The notes under the pieces were generated by a model that was not told the origin of the DNA, searched no databases, and saw only the letters and a list, made by a program, of their open reading frames with translations. A program made the translations under genes and the position numbers. Shown piece after piece: positions 25,854-37,141 of a stretch of 64,000 nt of DNA (position 1 is the first letter of the stretch; each line of letters begins with the position of its first letter). The stretch lies in contig NZ_CAAGSW010000003.1 of the NCBI RefSeq assembly GCF_900774055.1, forward strand, positions 62,001 through 126,000, read 5' to 3'. The stretch comes from Methanococcoides sp. AM1. GTDB lineage: Archaea; Halobacteriota; Methanosarcinia; Methanosarcinales; Methanosarcinaceae.

Positions 25854-25921
25854 GAGTTATTTTGGGGCGGTTATGGTATTTATAGGGTGTGTGGGGGTTT
25901 AGTTCGATCTTACATTGCGAT

Positions 25922-25941
25922 GACATTGCAATAGCAATGTC
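25922..25941. terminator. Hairpin at the edge of the R-M operon
   Basis: GACATTGC (25922-25929) and GCAATGTC (25934-25941) form a perfect 8-bp stem with a 4-nt loop, 40 bases after the res stop codon. A further ACATTGC copy lies just to the left. It probably ends the res transcript and shields the sir2 promoter. Confidence 0.5.
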
Positions 25942-25978
25942 TCCGCTTGTTTTCCATTTTATGTTTCCATCTGTAGCT

Positions 25979-28900
25979 TCATTCTTTGCCAGCGACGATT
26001 TCCATCAGTTTGCCATAACTGCTCACAACATCGTACTTCACGTTGTCTGGAGCAATTTTACTGTTGATTTCGTCGAAGAATTTTCTGGCACATTCTATTT
26101 TTGTTTTTTCGATTTCCCTCAACTGCATCGAAGACATGGAACCTTTTGTTTCAGCTACAAAGTAGACATGCTTTACTGTTCCTTCTTTGAATGAAATTGC
26201 CCAGTCAGGATTGTAATTTCCAACTGGAGTAGGAATAGAGAATCCTTTTGGAAGTTTTGCATACACAACAACTTCGGAACTTGTATCCAGTTCTTTGACA
26301 AAAGTGCGTTCTATTTTGGAGTCCGTTATAACATAATCATAGATGTGTCTCTCGAGCGGTTCACCTGCTTTGCTGAAGTCCTGTTTAGTTTGAGCATTTG
26401 TAAATATATCGATATCGTGAGTTTCATTAATCGAATCATAGCTTAAATGTTCGATAATGACGGTCGCTTTCTGTTCATTTATTAAGCGAGTTGTTTCAGC
26501 AATGAAGCTTTCGGGATTGATCTTAAATTTTGCAAAAGTCTTTTCCTCAATACTGCCCAGAATATCTGTTACGGTTTTTCTGGTCAGTTGGACACTTTCT
26601 GCAACTTTTCCGATCAGATCATATTTAACAGCAGAATGAATTGAGTTGCTATCTTGTTCAGTTGAGGTTTCAATGATCCTAAAGCTGTCTCCTGATCTCA
26701 TCCGATCATAGCTAATTCCATCATCCTGTTCACCACGTTGCACAGTGTATTGAAGAGGAGCTACATGCAGCTCTTTGTTCAAAGTCTGCACGCATTTCTC
26801 TACCAGTTCAGAACTGTCGAAGTGCACACTGTAAACCGCTTTTCGATTGATCTTGTTCCAGAGCTCTTTGAATTCTTTTTTATCAAAGTTGGCGTTCAGA
26901 GCATTTGTTTTAGTACCACGGTCATTTTCAATTTGTGGTAAGTTGGCATCGCTATATACGCTATCAATTAGTTGAAAAACCTGCTCTTTGTAAGGCTGTA
27001 AGTCTTCCGGTAATGGGGCAAGCATCTCATTTTTGACAGCTTCGTGATATCCCTGAGCAATGTTGTCATTGTCATCGGTGTAGTCATTTTTTAGAAGGTA
27101 CTTATAGATCTTCTTGGCCATTTGAGGTGTCACTTCAACATTACCACCATCAATTGGCAGAGTCTTTCCAGTGAAATATGATTCATCTGCTACACGAGGT
27201 CTTTCTGAGAGGGATTCACTGATATCACGTTGCAAAGCGCCTACAAAATCTTTGTAACTTTCACTGGCAATAACCGTCAGCACATTGGTCTGATGAACAG
27301 TTGCAGGATCATCCTGTCGATCACCATGTTGGTTGACAGCAATACGAAGTCCACGTCCAACCTCTTGTCTTCGTGATATCGTGTTATCACTGTGTTTTAA
27401 TGTACAGATGACAAACACATTAGGGTTATCCCATCCTTCACGTAGTGCGGAATGAGAGAATATAAATCGAGTTTCTTCTTCAAAAGAAAGAAGTCGTTCC
27501 TTGTCTTTCAGAATTAAATCGTATGCATCGACATCATCCGTCTCTGATGACTTTTTTCCAGTAGCTGGATCAATCATACGCTTACTTTTCTTGTCGATAG
27601 AAAAGTATCCATTGTGGGTGAGGTTAACTGGTATGTTGTCTAAGTATTTTCTGTAATCTTTGTGAATAGACAAATCCTCTTTCAGCTCATTAAGAGCATT
27701 CTGATACTCTTCCTCAAATATCTGAGCATATTCTCCACCTTCTTCCCCAGCATCTGTATACATACGGTATTTTGCAACTTCATCGATAAAGAAGAGGCTC
27801 AGTACCTTTATGCCCTGGTGGAAAAGCACTTGTTCTTTTTCAAAATGTGCTTTGATAGCTTCACGTATCTGGATTCGTCTTAATGAGGCTGTGTTAACAT
27901 CACCTGTAGCTTCTCCAGCTTGTAATTGGTGTCCGTTTGTAAATTCAACGGTATCAGTCACTGCATTAATATCGGAGATCACAAACCCTTTATATTGATC
28001 CAACTCACCTGATAGATCGTAAAGATTGTCACCCTTGCCCAGTTTACGGATTATCCTTTTGATTCCAGTGTTCTGTTTAACTTCCAGTTCTAATCTAGCA
28101 ACAGGTGACTGTTTTGATATCTCGATAGATTCCAGATAGAGATAGGCATTGGTGCCGGATAGCCCTTTAACGGAAATGCCTCTTACTGAAATTTTCTTCA
28201 CAAGTTTCTGATTATAAGCATCTAATGCATCAAGTCGGTGTACTTTGTTATGTTGAGTTTTATGTGTTGCTGAGTATCGAAGAATGAAAAGGGGTTTGAA
28301 TTCTTTGAGTGAATCCAGCGTCTTTGCACCTTCCATTTTTTGTGGTTCATCAAGAATAAGTACTGGACGATTGGCTTTGATCACATCAATTGGACGACGG
28401 CTCTGGAAATCATCAAGCTCCTCATAGATACGGCGATTATCCTTACCTCGTGCGTTAAATGCCTGAACATTGATCACCATGATGTTTATCCCTGCATCCG
28501 AGGAAAAACTCTCAAGGTTGTGTAGTTGCTTGGAGTTGTAGATAAAGAACTTAGCTTTCTTGTTATAGGTTTCCTGAAAATGTTCCGCCGTGATCTCAAG
28601 TGACTTGTAAATACCTTCACGGATAGCGATACTCGGGACTACAACGATGAACTTTGACCACCCAAATTGCTTGTTCATCTCGAAAATGGTCTTGATATAA
28701 CAGTAAGTTTTACCTGTCCCGGTTTCCATCTCAACATCAAGATTCAGAGGCGAAACTTTGGTCTTAACGAGACTGCTCGACTGTGGAAGGTTTTGTAAAC
28801 GTTGAATTTCCTGTATGTTTTCAAGAACCTGCTGATCACTCAAGACAAGATCATGATTTTTAAATCCAGATTCTTCATCTACCAAGCCTATATCAATAAT

Positions 28901-29053
28901 AGTTTGCTGGTATGATCCGTCTGCATTTTTTATTCTAACGCCTGGATCAATACGATAGCTGATCCCCGCAGTATTTGGTTGCCCCTTAAAACAATCCACC
29001 ACAGCTTCCACTGCATGAGTCTGGTAAGCCTGATTTTTAAATTTGAGTTTCAT
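25979..29053 (-). CDS. res: Type III restriction enzyme Res subunit (helicase-nuclease)
   Basis: 1024 aa, a normal Res length. An SF2 helicase core begins with METGTGKT (about 108-116), has a DEPQ box II and [16 protein letters not shown], and ends in motif [13 protein letters not shown]. The C-terminal nuclease domain has the PD-(D/E)xK pattern NPDWAI...VAETKG (about 950-980). In type III systems Res needs Mod to find the site, translocates with ATP and cuts when two sites meet. The start at ATG 29053 is preceded by AAGGGGG. It lies 11 bases below the mod stop. Confidence 0.9.
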
Positions 29054-29064
29054 CAAAGGCCCCC

Positions 29065-31004
29065 TTAAATTGTCTTTATATCCGTGTGCGGACTCATGAG
29101 CTTGAATATCTGCTCAACATTGATCTTAACACTATCATCACCGAATCCTGAATCGCGGAATACCACTCGCAGAGGTTCACGCTTTGCTAGCTCTTTACAG
29201 AAATCTTCAGTAATCTGACCATCTTTCACAAAGCAGGCAGCAAGAGCATTGCCATCTACAAAAAAGACCTCAAGCTCCGCAATGGTTTCTTTTTTAATCG
29301 GAAGCGCTAAATCAACACCCCAATCCAGAAGCACCTGAAATAGCAGATCCTCAGAGGTTCGTTTCTCTTTTATGTTGTCGGTATTCTTGAAAAGTTCAGT
29401 CTGTTTTGTTTTATCAGGTGTGTAATAGACATCTGCCATATTGCTGCTGTCAACTTTAAGGACACGGAAGCCGGTATCAAAGTTTGGAGCAGTTGTAGCA
29501 TTCTCTTCTTTGATCTTCTTTCCGGCACGGCGAATGCGTTCTTTGCTAATTTCTGCAATCGTTTTGTAACCAGCTTTGGAAGCTTCCGATTTTTCATTCG
29601 TTTTTTCCGGTAATTGCACCATGATAAATTTTCGTTTACCACCATCTTCGGTATTGAGCTGCATAACGGCATGGGCTGTGGTGGCTGAACCGGCAAAGAA
29701 GTCGAAGATTATAGAATCTTTATTAGCAGCCATCAGTAATAGTTGTTTTATTGTGTCTACAGACTTAGGAGACTGAAAAATTTTATTCTTCGATTGGAAT
29801 AATTCATTAAAAGCGCTTGTCCTTTTTCCGTGTGAAACTGCTTTTCGGTCCAGATTGACTTAACCTGTTTTGTAGCTTCGCCATTATCACCCTCAGCATA
29901 ATTTTTCCTATATATTTTCCAACTGCCTTTGACTTCTTTGGCTACAATCTCATTAATTTGATTTCTTGCTTTGTCTACTCCCCAAGTCCAACACCCTTCA
30001 AACCCATCATCCCAAATAGGATAAATCGGTATAGAACCAGGAATTTCATCCAGTGAAACTTGCCCTGTGTTACTTACATAAAATGGGTAATAAAGATTCT
30101 TTCTATTGTGTTTTCCAAACTCTCTATGTGTATTGCGTAGTTCTAGCTCACGGTATCTACCTTTTTCATCCTTTAATTTGTAATTTTTTGCTATTTCTTC
30201 GTCACTTTTAGGGATGTTTAGATCTCCTTTGTTGAGTTGTTGCTTCGAATATCCCACCAAATACTCATGGGAATTGGCAACAAATTTATCTTGCGACCGT
30301 CCTTTAGGGTTACAAAGCAAAGTGATTTGGAATAGAAGATTTGTTTCCCCGAATACTTCATCAAATATTTTTCTAATATTAACGATTTCATTTTCATCAA
30401 TGGAAGCAATTATAACTCCATCGTCAGTTAACAAATTCCGGGCTAATCTTAAACGTGGATAAATCATATCTAGCCAATCTGAATGAAATCTGCCATTAGC
30501 CTCTGTATTAGCTATAAGTTTGTTTCCGCTTTCATCAACTTGATTTGATTTTTTAAGAAACTCATCTGTATTTTCTGAAAAATCATCTTCATAAACAAAA
30601 TCGTTACCAGTGTTATACGGCGGATCAATATAGATCATTTTCACCTTACCGAGATATGTTTCTTGCAAGAGCTTAAGAGCATCAAGGTTATCGCCTTCAA
30701 TGAAGAGGTTCTCGGTGGTGTCAAAGTCCACACTTTCTTCACGGCAAGGGCGGAGGGTCTTAGCGATAGGAGCATTGGCGGTTAACAGAGCATCTCTCTT
30801 ACCTGGCCAGTTGAGAGTATAGCGTTCCTGTGGTCCTTCTACGATGTGTGTAGAAAGTTCCTGCTTTAATTGATCAAAATCGATTGATTTTTTTAGATTT
30901 CCATCTTTGTCGTTTGATTCCGTGACACAATAAGGAAACAGTGCAGCAAGTGTTGAGATGTTCTCTTCAGTAAAATTTGGGCTGTGCATCTTTAATTTAT
31001 CCAT
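29065..31004 (-). pseudogene. mod: Type III DNA methyltransferase Mod, split by a frameshift
   Basis: Two reading frames together cover a whole beta-class N6-adenine methyltransferase. The N-terminal part (31004 to about 29825) has IEGDNLDAL and catalytic DPPYNTG (127-133); the C-terminal part (about 29825 to 29065) has AdoMet motif I FDFFAGSATTAHAV. Around 29816-29827 the frame breaks after HTEK; one extra base there restores KNKIFQSPKSVDTIKQLLLM and a protein of about 646 aa. As it stands the first frame ends at 29757 with an unrelated 20-residue tail. It may be a real inactivation, a phase switch, or a sequencing error in A5/G2. Inside the five-gene operon. Confidence 0.88.
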
Positions 31005-31036
31005 TGTTAAAATCCTCTATATTTCACTTGCAATGT

Positions 31037-31699
31037 TTAGCTTTTAAGTTCTTCAATTTCCTGTTTTAGTTCATTAAGTGAACCGTTCATCTCAACTCTG
31101 CGATTAAACTGCTTTTCTTTTTTCATGCGGTATTCTATTTTTGTTGCATTTCTTTCTTTGATACACACGTTATCTATTCTTGCAACAAGTTCATCTAAAG
31201 ATTCATTCTTCTTGAAAGGAAGTGGAATAATAGCTTTGAGAAATGATTGATAAAGTGCACCCATATTAAGGACTACTGGCAGTTTCACTTTGTCAGAACT
31301 GTCATTTATCCACTCGGTTTTAAAGTAACTACTGATAATCCATTTGTTCTTGTCAGCTTCACTTGGGCGCTTATATGCTGCTACATATTTGCTCTTATCC
31401 TTATAGCTGAGGTGGAATAAAATTGGGGATGGTATGGCTTTGTCGATAGTCTGCAAGACTTCTTCAGCTAATGTACCTGTTTTGAGAATGATCGTAATGA
31501 CCTGAATCTCATGCACTCCTTCACTAACTGGAAGGTTGAGTGTTGCTGGGGATAACTTATAGGCCCAGGTCATCTTCTCCACTTCCTTGGTAAACAATTC
31601 CTTTACTTTGGAGCTTGGAGTGGAATGCTCGTAAATCTTGGTTTTGGAAAGCATCCGTCCAAAGACAGCTCTTTTTGGGAAGTCATACAAAATACTCAT
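31037..31699 (-). CDS. DUF4391 domain protein
   Basis: 220 aa, recognised as DUF4391 from its length, its start (ILYDFPKRAVFGRMLSKTKIYE) and its position; such proteins occur beside type III-like mod/res genes. The biochemical role is not known. The last 30 residues (ELKQEIEELKS) are probably a coiled coil. The ATG overlaps the helicase stop as ATGA, so translation is coupled, and mod follows after 32 bases. Confidence 0.75.
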   Translation of the reverse strand: MSILYDFPKRAVFGRMLSKTKIYEHSTPSSKVKELFTKEVEKMTWAYKLSPATLNLPVSEGVHEIQVITIILKTGTLAEEVLQTIDKAIPSPILFHLSYKDKSKYVAAYKRPSEADKNKWIISSYFKTEWINDSSDKVKLPVVLNMGALYQSFLKAIIPLPFKKNESLDELVARIDNVCIKERNATKIEYRMKKEKQFNRRVEMNGSLNELKQEIEELKS

Positions 31700-34600
31700 A
31701 CCTGTTCCTCTTGAACTACAAGGAAGGAAATGAGCTCAAAATCATCCAACCCTTTAATCGTGTCAACTAAGGCCGTGGTGTTAGTTCCAGAGAATAGACT
31801 GTCAATATCGTTGTCTTCCTTTACCTCGATCATTGATCGAATAGCTTGCCCCAGCAGATCTGAATAATGGACCATTTCCCTACCGTCATTGGTATCATAA
31901 TTAAACCTTTTACAAACATCGTATATTGGACTGTCCTGTCCCTTGCAACTGCTTCTTGCCAGATCAAGCAACGGTTTTACCTGCGTGTGATCTGTGATAA
32001 CCTCTCCATCATTATCGATATAGACAAGATAGTAAGGGTGCAGGCGGTTATGCTGGTTAACATTGACGTCCGAATTGCGGTTACGAAGGGTAAAGATAAC
32101 TCCGGGGACCAAACCTATTTCCGGGTTTGATGGCACGACTGCGTGCAGCCCGCTTGGCAGGTGGCCTAAATCCCCATTTGTTTTAATATGGTTCAGCAGG
32201 TCCATGCGGAAATCATTCAGCCCCAGATCCGTGATATTTACCCCTGTTTTCAAGTCCTCCAGTTCTATGACTTCATCCTGCAGGCGGCGGAGCTGCTCTT
32301 TTCGATAGGAAACATCATTGGCCTGTGCGGAAAGCACATTATCATCACCTGTAGCAGTAACATCAGCAATGATCATTCGGTTCTCAACACGCTCTTTCAG
32401 ATTGATATATTCATCGAGAGAAATATCGGGCCAATAGTTGACCAGCTGGATCGATTCATTTTGAGAACCAATACGGTCTACACGTCCAAAGCGCTGGATA
32501 ATACGTACAGGATTCCAGTGGATATCATAGTTGATAAGGTAATCACAGTCCTGAAGATTCTGTCCTTCTGAAATACAGTCCGTACCAATCAATAAATCGA
32601 TTTCTCCTGGTTCATCAGGGAGGATAAGAGCTTTTTCTTTTGAGACCGGAGAGAACATCGTTAAAATAGACTGAAAATCATATCCTTTTTTCAGAGTAGT
32701 TTTCGGTGCATCTTTGCCTGTAACACGTCCGGAGTGCACATCAATTTTGAGCAACTCTTCAGACAAGTTTGCATAAAGGTAATTAGCTGTGTCTGCAAAG
32801 GCGGTGAAAATGACGACCTTTTTATTGCCCGGATTTATCGGGTTTTGAATTTTCTCCTGAATGTGTCTTTTAATGTGCTGCAGCTTTGAGTCATCCTGAG
32901 GGGTGACTTTGTTCATTTCAGAAAGGAGTTCTGTTATTACAACCAAGTCATTCTTCAGATCATATTCCCATGATGGCAGATCCATGTCTGCCAGACTTAC
33001 CTGTACCTTCCCTCCGATCATGAATTCACTCAATCCTGTAAGGTCATCATCTTCATCTTCAAGGTCTCCAAGAGAATCTGCCAGATCATGAATCGAAAGA
33101 TCCGAACCTGACCGCTTGAATTGCTCTATTTTGGCGAGCATATCCTTATGCTTTTCTTCCAGGACTCCAAGCGTCAGTCTGAAAGACTCAACCGAACTTT
33201 CAAGGCGCTTCAATAGATTAGTCGTCATCAGTGACTGAAGGCTTTTTTCACGATCAGCTTGACGAAGTTTACCCTTTCCACCTTCAACAGAGGTATCATA
33301 AAGTTCTTCATATTTTTTCAGTCTACTTGAAAGGATGTAGTTGATAGGTGCATAAACAGAAAGTTTCAGCAGAGAAAGCTGTGCATAAATCTCATTAAAG
33401 CTCATTACATCAGAACGGTCTGTTAAGGGGCAACGAAATGACAGGGGTTTTCGTCTTATCGGAAAATTCCCAATGTCGGTTGTATCGTAGAATGTCTCAA
33501 TATGCTTTCTGGAGCGGGCTATAGTAACACTGTCCAGCAGTTCGAAAAAATCAAATTCAAGAGCATCCAGAATTGATCTGGCTGTTCGCTCTTCAGGAGG
33601 CAATTTCGACCATTGATTAAAAACAGTTTGAGCGTGGCGGAATATCTCTTCAATACTTTTATCAGTTCTCAGCTTTTGGCTCAGATTCTCAGATTCTCCT
33701 TCATACGCAAGAGCAAGTTGATTGCGAAGGTCATTGAACTGATTGTTTACCGGCGTAGCGGAAAGCATCAACACTTTCGTTTTAACGCCGTCACGGACCA
33801 CTGAGTTCATCAGTTTCTGGTATCGTGTCTCTTTATCCTTGTAGGTATCGTTGTTACGGAAGTTATGAGACTCATCTATGACTACGAGGTCGTAGTTGCC
33901 CCAATTGATCTTATTCAGATCCAAGCCGGAAGATGTGCCTGTTCGGCGTGAAAGGTCCGTATGAAAAAGAACATCATAATTCAGACGGTCCTGTGCCAGT
34001 ATATTTGTTTTGTAATTACTTCGATAGGTTTGCCAGTTATCCTCAAGCTTCTTTGGGCAAAGCACAAGCACAGAACGATTTCTAAGTTCATAATATTTTA
34101 TGACTGCTAGTGCAGTAAATGTTTTGCCGAGGCCCACGCTATCAGCCAGAATGCATCCGTTGTAGCTTTCCAGTTTGTTGATAATGCCTGTAGCGGCATC
34201 CTGCTGAAAATTAAAGAGCTTATTCCATACAACAGTGTTCTTGTAGCCGGTCAGATCATTAGGAAGCACATCCTCGTTCAGATCTTCAAGAAATTCATTG
34301 AAGATGTTGTAAAGCATAAGGAAATAGATCTTTTCCGGTGAATTTTCTTTATAAACAGATTCAATGTGTGTACAGATACTGTCCGTCACATCCTGTAGCT
34401 TGGAATCGTCCTCCCAGATCATGTCAAAAAGATCCAGCCAGGTTTTAGTGGATATAGTATCATCAAACTTATTAATAAAATTAGAAACAGCGTCCCCTTG
34501 GCTGTACCCAAGGTCAACTGCAGTAAAACCGTGTAAGGGCATGTAAGATGTATCTTCATCATCCGTATTCAGACAGGCAAATTGCTGCATCGGAGCTTTT

Positions 34601-34968
34601 GTTGAATTCGAGCAAAACGTTGCTTTTCTTCGTATCCAGTCGGCACATTCTTTGGCTATTGCCCGTTGGGTAAGTTTGTTTTTGAGCTGAATTTCAAATT
34701 CACTTCCATATAGATTTTGTTCACGTTGTTTTTTAGGAATGTGAAATTCTCTACGCTCTCTAGATACTTTGTCTGTAACCTCGTTTGCTACAAAAGCTGG
34801 AGCAGTAAAGATGAACTCAAGAGACTCAATCTTTTCTAACTCTGTTTTTAAAGCTTCATAGGCATAAATGGAGAAACAAGAAGCAGCAATTTTTAGCTTC
34901 GTACCGGGCTCGAGAGTTTTTTTCAGATCATCTCCCCATAGGTCATTTATATTATCTAGTATTTGCAT
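31696..34968 (-). CDS. SNF2-family helicase with PLD-like N-terminal domain
   Basis: 1090 aa. Residues 1-130 resemble the degenerate phospholipase-D-like domain that precedes many bacterial SNF2 helicases (KLKIAASCFSIYAYEALK). Helicase motifs: DSVGLGKT (276-283), VIDESHNF (363-370), LSATPVNNQ, IGTDCISEGQNLQ, and QRFGRVDRIG near 850. An acidic, coiled insertion sits between the two helicase lobes. The start has GGTGA upstream. This type of ATPase remodels or translocates on double-stranded DNA. It is cotranscribed with DUF4391, mod and res, and its companion role in a type III system is an inference. Confidence 0.87.
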   Translation of the reverse strand: MQILDNINDLWGDDLKKTLEPGTKLKIAASCFSIYAYEALKTELEKIESLEFIFTAPAFVANEVTDKVSRERREFHIPKKQREQNLYGSEFEIQLKNKLTQRAIAKECADWIRRKATFCSNSTKAPMQQFACLNTDDEDTSYMPLHGFTAVDLGYSQGDAVSNFINKFDDTISTKTWLDLFDMIWEDDSKLQDVTDSICTHIESVYKENSPEKIYFLMLYNIFNEFLEDLNEDVLPNDLTGYKNTVVWNKLFNFQQDAATGIINKLESYNGCILADSVGLGKTFTALAVIKYYELRNRSVLVLCPKKLEDNWQTYRSNYKTNILAQDRLNYDVLFHTDLSRRTGTSSGLDLNKINWGNYDLVVIDESHNFRNNDTYKDKETRYQKLMNSVVRDGVKTKVLMLSATPVNNQFNDLRNQLALAYEGESENLSQKLRTDKSIEEIFRHAQTVFNQWSKLPPEERTARSILDALEFDFFELLDSVTIARSRKHIETFYDTTDIGNFPIRRKPLSFRCPLTDRSDVMSFNEIYAQLSLLKLSVYAPINYILSSRLKKYEELYDTSVEGGKGKLRQADREKSLQSLMTTNLLKRLESSVESFRLTLGVLEEKHKDMLAKIEQFKRSGSDLSIHDLADSLGDLEDEDDDLTGLSEFMIGGKVQVSLADMDLPSWEYDLKNDLVVITELLSEMNKVTPQDDSKLQHIKRHIQEKIQNPINPGNKKVVIFTAFADTANYLYANLSEELLKIDVHSGRVTGKDAPKTTLKKGYDFQSILTMFSPVSKEKALILPDEPGEIDLLIGTDCISEGQNLQDCDYLINYDIHWNPVRIIQRFGRVDRIGSQNESIQLVNYWPDISLDEYINLKERVENRMIIADVTATGDDNVLSAQANDVSYRKEQLRRLQDEVIELEDLKTGVNITDLGLNDFRMDLLNHIKTNGDLGHLPSGLHAVVPSNPEIGLVPGVIFTLRNRNSDVNVNQHNRLHPYYLVYIDNDGEVITDHTQVKPLLDLARSSCKGQDSPIYDVCKRFNYDTNDGREMVHYSDLLGQAIRSMIEVKEDNDIDSLFSGTNTTALVDTIKGLDDFELISFLVVQEEQV

Positions 34969-35000
34969 GCTTTTTCACCATCTATTTCTCCAAATATATT

Positions 35001-36035
35001 TCAGTACGTGACACACCATTTGCTTGCGATTTCATTTATAGACGTAGTTGTGAAAATCCTTTTACCTTTTTTGATATGGGATGAGACAACATTGCAATTG
35101 AGTACCCTCACAAAACGATGTTTTTCAAAAGGAATAGTAGAACCCGCTATTGCAAGTATTGATTTTACTTTTACTTCATCTTTTGCAAGGTTATAATAAA
35201 GTTTCTCTAATGAATTTCCATATTTGTAGTCGTTTAAATAGCGATATACAAGATAACCACTTCTCTGAATCTGGTCATATGGGGTATAAGATCCATCATT
35301 AAAGACATCTTGAGTATAATGATTACTCCAATTCTTTGTCTCAATTACGAATACTCCCGTAGGACCTACTACAAGGTGATCGATTTGGGCAGATTTCAAA
35401 GTTGAACCGTTAAACTTGATGTAGTCCTTCAATTCAATATACAAGTCGTTGAATAGATAATAATCATCGGAAAGTTTGCTTAAATTTTTAATAACAGCTA
35501 ACTCTCCTAAAGCCCCTTTATATTCATTCGATTTCTTTATTTCTTCTATTTTACTAATTTGAGATACTAAGTGGGATAACCTAGATTCTACTTCTGCATC
35601 AGTATTATTTTCGAGATGATTAAGTCTGCTTTTTAGTAGATTTAATGATGAAAACGAATTTTCAAGTCTTTTATTTATTTCAATCTGTGTATGCGTCTCA
35701 AGATATTGTAATCTCTTGTAATAACGACGTAATTTCAATTTACTGAAAAAATAATGGAACAGGATTTTTATGTTAAATTCAATTGTTTTTAACTCTTCTG
35801 CTTCTTCTTTTAATTTCTCAGATTCTAAATCTATTTCTTTCATTATCTGAGGTTTTCGTAATTCTATAGTATTTTCGGCATCTTCTAATTTTGTATGTAT
35901 GTCGTTTATTTCCAATTTAATTTGGTTAGAGATTATTGGTTTTTCTTCATTGTATTGTCTTTTAACATCTTTCGAGATAAAATCTATTTCAGTTAAATCC
36001 GATATTGGGAAACCCTTCTCTCTAGCAAGATTCAT
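35001..36035 (-). CDS. NERD-domain protein with coiled coil
   Basis: 344 aa. A long coiled-coil region (about 25-165, many Glu/Lys/Leu) precedes a NERD nuclease-related domain: KGALGELAVIKNLSKL, SAQIDHLVVGPTGVFVIETKNWS, with the D...E-x-K pattern of a PD-(D/E)xK fold. The gene ends 32 bases before the SNF2 helicase start on the same strand, so it is likely the first gene of the R-M operon. The true N-terminus is uncertain: nine further protein-like codons precede ATG 36035 in frame and then a TAG. Confidence 0.75.
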   Translation of the reverse strand: MNLAREKGFPISDLTEIDFISKDVKRQYNEEKPIISNQIKLEINDIHTKLEDAENTIELRKPQIMKEIDLESEKLKEEAEELKTIEFNIKILFHYFFSKLKLRRYYKRLQYLETHTQIEINKRLENSFSSLNLLKSRLNHLENNTDAEVESRLSHLVSQISKIEEIKKSNEYKGALGELAVIKNLSKLSDDYYLFNDLYIELKDYIKFNGSTLKSAQIDHLVVGPTGVFVIETKNWSNHYTQDVFNDGSYTPYDQIQRSGYLVYRYLNDYKYGNSLEKLYYNLAKDEVKVKSILAIAGSTIPFEKHRFVRVLNCNVVSSHIKKGKRIFTTTSINEIASKWCVTY

Positions 36036-36337
36036 TAAATCTTTTTCTGCCCCTGACCTTCCCTATTGAATTACCACTCTTAATACTTCCTGATTGAGCT
36101 ATAAATACAGAAATTAAATGCCAAATCATACATTTCTCAAATTTGAGGCTATTAATATATTTATTTTTATCTATTTTGTCATTGATTTTGAGTGTAACTT
36201 TAATTTTTGTTACAATTATGAAAATCACAGAATCAGGATAATGTCGATAAATCTTAATCAGGATTGGCATTACATCAAGAAAGATCTGTTAGAAATAATA
36301 GCATGAATATTTTAATCCCTCTCCAACCCGACTACAT
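36036..36337. other. Intergenic region, no gene seen
   Basis: About 300 very A+T-rich bases between two minus-strand genes. Short ORFs in it have no protein-like composition or ribosome site. It should contain the promoter of the NERD-led operon. Confidence 0.35.
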
Positions 36338-37141
36338 TCAATACCCCATCCTCTTACTTCTTGAAATCAATAGATAAACCACACTAAGAAGCAACAACAC
36401 AATACACCCAATCGTCGTACTGATAATCACTGGATACTGCCCCCCAAATCCTTCAGGGGAAGTGTGCTTTAGCAATATTCCCGAGTAAGCCCAGACAATA
36501 ACAAGTCCGTAGGCAACATCCCTGTTTTTCAGCATGGTCGCAAGGCCGATAACAAGTCCTAAAGCAATTACTATAACAGTCCAGGAAGCGTCACTCAAAA
36601 TAAAGTCTTTCCAGCCCCAGCTGACAAGAAGTATAGTGGCATTGGCAATGGTTGCTACGGTGATCCATCCGAAGTAAACGCTAAATGGAAGCCTGATAAA
36701 GAAATATTCGTCTTTTGAAAACTGTTCCCTTCTTGTAAGCTGATTTATCAGGATCAGGCAAGTGAGGATCACGACCATCAGCAACATGGACAATGGGATT
36801 ATTTCATAGTGCCATGCGAGGATCCAGGATGCATTGGCAATGGAAGATACAGAGAAGAGGATTCCAAGCTTATAGATGAGCTCGGTCCTGTCGGTGGCTG
36901 TATTTCCCTGAAAGATGCCGAGCTGGTAAAGGGTGTACCCTCCCAGTAACAGATATATGAGTCCCCAGATCGAAAAGGTTGCTCCTGCAGGGGCAAAGAG
37001 ATTGGGGTAGGCTTCTGAGAGCTGGCCGGTGGTGATGTCGTTGATGGGGAGGATGTTGGCCAGTGCATTGACGGTGATCATTATCAGGAACGTTACTGCT
37101 GTGACGATTTTGATTGTTTGTTTTCTTTGGTTTGTGTTCAT
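36338..37141 (-). CDS. TspO/MBR-like tryptophan-rich membrane protein
   Basis: About 267 aa from the ATG at 37141 (GGGGGT lies about 10 bases upstream). Seven or so TM segments with conserved-looking LFAPAGATFSIWGLIYLLLG and PFSVYFGWITVATIANATI. It resembles the extended TspO-related family often labelled tryptophan-rich sensory protein; ligand and role are unknown. It sits inside the defence island but shows no clear link to it. Confidence 0.65.
   Translation of the reverse strand: MNTNQRKQTIKIVTAVTFLIMITVNALANILPINDITTGQLSEAYPNLFAPAGATFSIWGLIYLLLGGYTLYQLGIFQGNTATDRTELIYKLGILFSVSSIANASWILAWHYEIIPLSMLLMVVILTCLILINQLTRREQFSKDEYFFIRLPFSVYFGWITVATIANATILLVSWGWKDFILSDASWTVIVIALGLVIGLATMLKNRDVAYGLVIVWAYSGILLKHTSPEGFGGQYPVIISTTIGCIVLLLLSVVYLLISRSKRMGY

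Follow-up and report, generated by a model that had tools for sequence, protein, structure and literature searches.

The mod gene of a type III restriction-modification island in this genome is divided between two reading frames by a single-base break, and the remainder of the gene is intact. Breaks of this kind are rare both in the assembly and in the gene family. We consider it probable, at roughly three chances in four, that a genuine and recent loss of one base has inactivated the methyltransferase/specificity subunit of this horizontally acquired island, and we infer that the cells carry this mutation and have a silent system.

Two halves of one Mod protein

The window (the whole stretch of DNA analysed, 64,000 nucleotides) belongs to the genome of a methanogen of the Methanosarcinaceae, 2.48 Mb in 46 contigs. 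On its minus strand it carries a four-gene island comprising a SNF2-type helicase, a DUF4391 gene, mod (31004-29065) and res (Table 1). The order helicase-DUF4391-mod-res was found in ~90 of the fetched loci, in bacteria as well as archaea, and the role of the SNF2/HKD helicase and of DUF4391 in these loci appears to be undescribed in the literature searched. The window shares its gene order with these islands, but nearly all of the others have an intact mod. Res contains the domains PF04851 and PF19778 and matched the model PDLC03647 with 1145.9 bits. In mod, FQSPKS and FDFFAGSATTAHAV lie in frame B, together with the C-terminal domain.

Table 1. Features of the type III island, in window coordinates.
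Feature	Position	Strand	Description
mod frame A	29757..31004	-	415 aa; N-terminal domain, methylase motifs IV-VIII with DPPY, target-recognition domain
mod frame break	29812..29816	-	5 bases between the Gln codon (frame A) and the Phe codon (frame B)
mod frame B	29065..29811 (stop-to-stop 29065-29859)	-	motifs X, I (FAGSATT), II-III, C-terminal domain
res	25979..29056	-	intact; ResIII/DEAD helicase and C-terminal endonuclease domain
DUF4391 gene	31037..31699	-	intact; conserved neighbour of mod in the family
SNF2-type helicase	31696..34968	-	intact; PADLOC candidate C3a139 (HKD+Snf2); first gene in the conserved order

The two mod halves matched the PADLOC type III methylase model PDLC03634 end to end (profile positions 2-387 and 406-620), and they matched 18-298 and 400-506, in order, of EcoP15I Mod, which is one chain (4zcf). 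Both halves also matched the same full-length ORFs in relatives and were collinear with ~130 intact relatives. Judged from these alignments, the joint match of both halves to one protein is far beyond chance, and the single-base frame break in mod that had been proposed on reading the sequence alone is therefore real. The beta-class motif order, with the target-recognition domain (TRD) between motifs VIII and X, appeared when both frames were combined and not otherwise; the continuous single frame of a Mod in a functional type III system is interrupted by the frame change at 29812-29816. As in the type III enzymes EcoP15I and EcoP1I (Mod2Res1), the combined Mod follows the order IV-VIII, TRD, X, I-III, C-terminal domain (CTD), and it adjoins a Res with helicase and endonuclease domains. 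Unlike those systems, the window has a mod split by a frameshift, and its island adds the SNF2 helicase and DUF4391 upstream. A mod ORF in a genome of the same family (G043) was the same as that of Methanomethylovorans contig JACIVZ010000041.1, which identifies the family as Methanosarcinaceae.

Relatives with the same type of recognition domain share the consensus (T)E(K/R)GQxxFNxLF, and loci L003, L032, L033, L037, L041, L043 and L058 all retain the Gly-Gln and, after two further residues, the Phe/Leu position. In the window, frame A retains the Gln codon (29817-29819) and frame B the Phe codon (29809-29811), and the interval between the two codons has 5 bases where relatives have 6. The gap in the alignment to the nearest relative, L032, falls in the same interval. 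We therefore place the break there and not in the adjoining A5/G2 run (29820-29827) just upstream, since a break in that run would lose the conserved Gln; the sequence-only reading, which had put the break near that run, was off by ~7 bases. On the map of EcoP15I, where the TRD spans 263-384 (PMC4490356), the break lies directly after the TRD, where the second half of the methylase domain begins.

The island is flanked by a Sir2-like gene on one side and a TspO-like gene on the other (window 25860-36340). In other genomes of the genus these flanks are less far apart or have other content between them, and comparison of the sequences suggests that the interval may be an insertion hotspot. A repeat of ~52 bases lies at the island border (25904-25957) and has many copies in genomes of the same genus.

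Sequence error and the age of the break

A difference of one base in a 46-contig draft, within a mod that is otherwise perfect, may indicate a sequencing or assembly error, mod being intact in the organism. Conserved ORFs of a complete genome of the same genus were compared with 646 kb of the present genome, using a method that picks up the mod break too. Among 398 orthologs, mostly core genes and covering 391,464 distinct bases, there was 1 frame change, and ~0.005 frame changes would be expected in the 1.94 kb of mod. This one change lies in a gene for a metallo-beta-lactamase/rhodanese, at a site without a homopolymer. The reverse test, on the complete reference genome, gave 3 frame changes, some of them doubtful. 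In addition, the break in mod is at a site without a long homopolymer (a run of four T), and the mod of the sister island in another species of the genus is broken as well, by a net 10-base deletion, which is not the usual type of base-calling error. Given how seldom base errors occur in the assembly, the most likely explanation is a loss-of-function mutation that is both genuine and recent. With so few frame changes in conserved genes, the possibility of an artefact, which had been raised from the sequence, is an unlikely one, though it deserves some weight. The metallo-beta-lactamase/rhodanese fusion, the second frameshifted gene of this genome, is broken at L164:480-520 (G000:C2, ~240.5 kb) and intact in genome G001.

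All 49 of the 49 columns that are at least 97% conserved among 115 homologs are unchanged in the window mod, and no second stop or indel was found in it. Under a simple neutral model, a further stop or indel would be expected in a gene of this length by roughly 1-3% divergence. The retained columns and the lack of a second stop or indel argue that the loss of mod is recent, in agreement with the sequence-only reading, which had called the break recent and the halves otherwise intact and conserved. Across the family, mod is intact in ~130 of ~134 checkable copies; the exceptions are the window, the sister island (G003/L212), L032, where a cut follows motif X close to the end of the contig, and L252, which has an internal TAA. 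Viral contigs, plasmids and E. coli genomes also yielded relatives, though none was near enough for the break to be dated. The nearest relative outside the genus is L032 (11100-11392), from a Nitrosospira MAG with 77% identity, in which unrelated sequence follows the cut in mod. This sequence was considered as the start of a transposase and set aside; it had no match in Pfam, and the contig ends 120 bases further on.

Phase variation, recoding and split enzymes

Among phase-variable methylase genes, type III mod is the classic example (PMC3874151), and a frame break between intact halves could mean that slipped-strand mispairing reversibly toggles mod, as in phasevarions. Phasevarion mod genes resemble the window in having a frameshifted mod beside res; unlike the window, they have a repeat tract at the break. 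No tandem repeats able to serve a switch were present in the mod region, the four T being the longest run at the break and no homopolymer in the break interval exceeding 4 bases, and the longer A6/A7 runs of mod lie elsewhere and are unbroken. Furthermore, the lesion in the mod of G003 lies elsewhere in the gene and is of a different type. That copy differs from the window mod in allele as well as in break site, and no genome of the same species was found for a sibling comparison. The idea of a switch, which had also been put forward from the sequence, finds no support in these results, and we regard reversible phase variation as very improbable. The break lacks every feature of a phase switch, and a candidate switch is thereby removed.

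Mod might alternatively still be read, by programmed -1 frameshifting, by polymerase slippage, or as two polypeptides that reassemble as in some split methylases. In favour of this are the good conservation of both halves, a frame change that goes in the -1 direction, and the known complementing fragments of a C5 methylase (PMC3404938). However, relatives are in one frame at the break site, where the window has no X XXY YYZ slippery site (the 0-frame reads CTT TTA after GCG), and the RNA downstream of the break folds no better than shuffled sequence (z = +1.0). The first ATG, GTG or TTG of frame B is at 29733, past motif X and inside the methylase core, and it is not preceded by a Shine-Dalgarno-like sequence. 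Continued reading of mod would seem hardly probable at all. As the site has neither a repeat tract nor a slippery site, and neither an RNA structure nor a second start, a phase switch, a programmed frameshift and a split enzyme are each unlikely. Pyrrolysine read-through of the frame-A TAG (29757-29759) was also considered and rejected, as an in-frame TAA follows a few codons on (29748-29750).

The sister island and predicted consequences

The only other copy of the island in the genus, in locus L212 of G003, is ~91% identical in DNA. Its helicase, DUF4391 and res genes are intact, with 95.5, 92 and 94% amino-acid identity to those of the window and a dS of ~0.3. For mod (window 29065-31004), dS against L212 is 1.2-1.6 over most of the gene and 0.37 in the last 150 codons. 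Because the values over most of mod are far above those of helicase and res, one of the two islands has replaced most of its mod. The alleles differ in the centre of mod, as those of EcoP1 and EcoP15 do (PMC3874151). The L212 gene (L212:8963-10851, G003:C2) is a different mod allele, separately broken by its net 10-base deletion, which precedes the part for the C-terminal domain. Raised dS between the window and L212 was also seen in helicase codons 900-1020 and in the res C-terminus from codon 720.

The broken mod in both genus copies (2/2) is suggestive of parallel loss, in a comparison of two cases that was made after the fact. It raises a testable question, whether the type III islands of the genus are repeatedly silenced via mod with the rest kept. 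Conceivably, the island loses its mod again and again, and purifying selection maintains helicase, DUF4391 and Res, whether because there is selection against Mod activity or because the other genes can act without it. Broken alleles would then later be replaced by recombination, which would make a slow switch without repeats; we hold this scenario to be quite unlikely. We favour an ordinary loss-of-function mutation, an ordinary kind of gene loss that is slightly more notable as the mod of a related species is broken differently.

If the single-base loss is genuine, translation of mod would stop at 29757, after 415 residues that comprise the N-terminal domain, motifs IV-VIII and the recognition domain. 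This fragment would lack the C-terminal domain and the half that binds AdoMet (X, I-III), and truncated Mod is predicted to yield no methylation. DNA recognition in type III systems is the task of Mod alone, and Res needs to be in complex with Mod to cleave (PMC10609329); Res is stabilised by Mod (PMC3874151), and the Mod-Res contacts of EcoP15I are made via the MTase domain and CTD of Mod (PMC4490356). Since a type III Res is active only when complexed with Mod, restriction would not be expected either, and the intact res would be tolerated. Res without Mod is likely to be harmless, which fits the literature (PMC3874151, PMC10609329). In gonococcal NgoAV, a frameshift is found in hsdS (PMC6789123). 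There, as in the window mod, one base gained or lost in the specificity subunit would be expected to shut down the entire system; NgoAV is of type I, whereas the window system is of type III, in an archaeal host of which one genome of the species has been seen. The strain is best annotated as Mod-deficient, and it may accept foreign DNA more readily as regards this system. The same genome keeps a second type III-like mod on contig C2; its frame is open over 1010 codons, and a helicase gene follows it.
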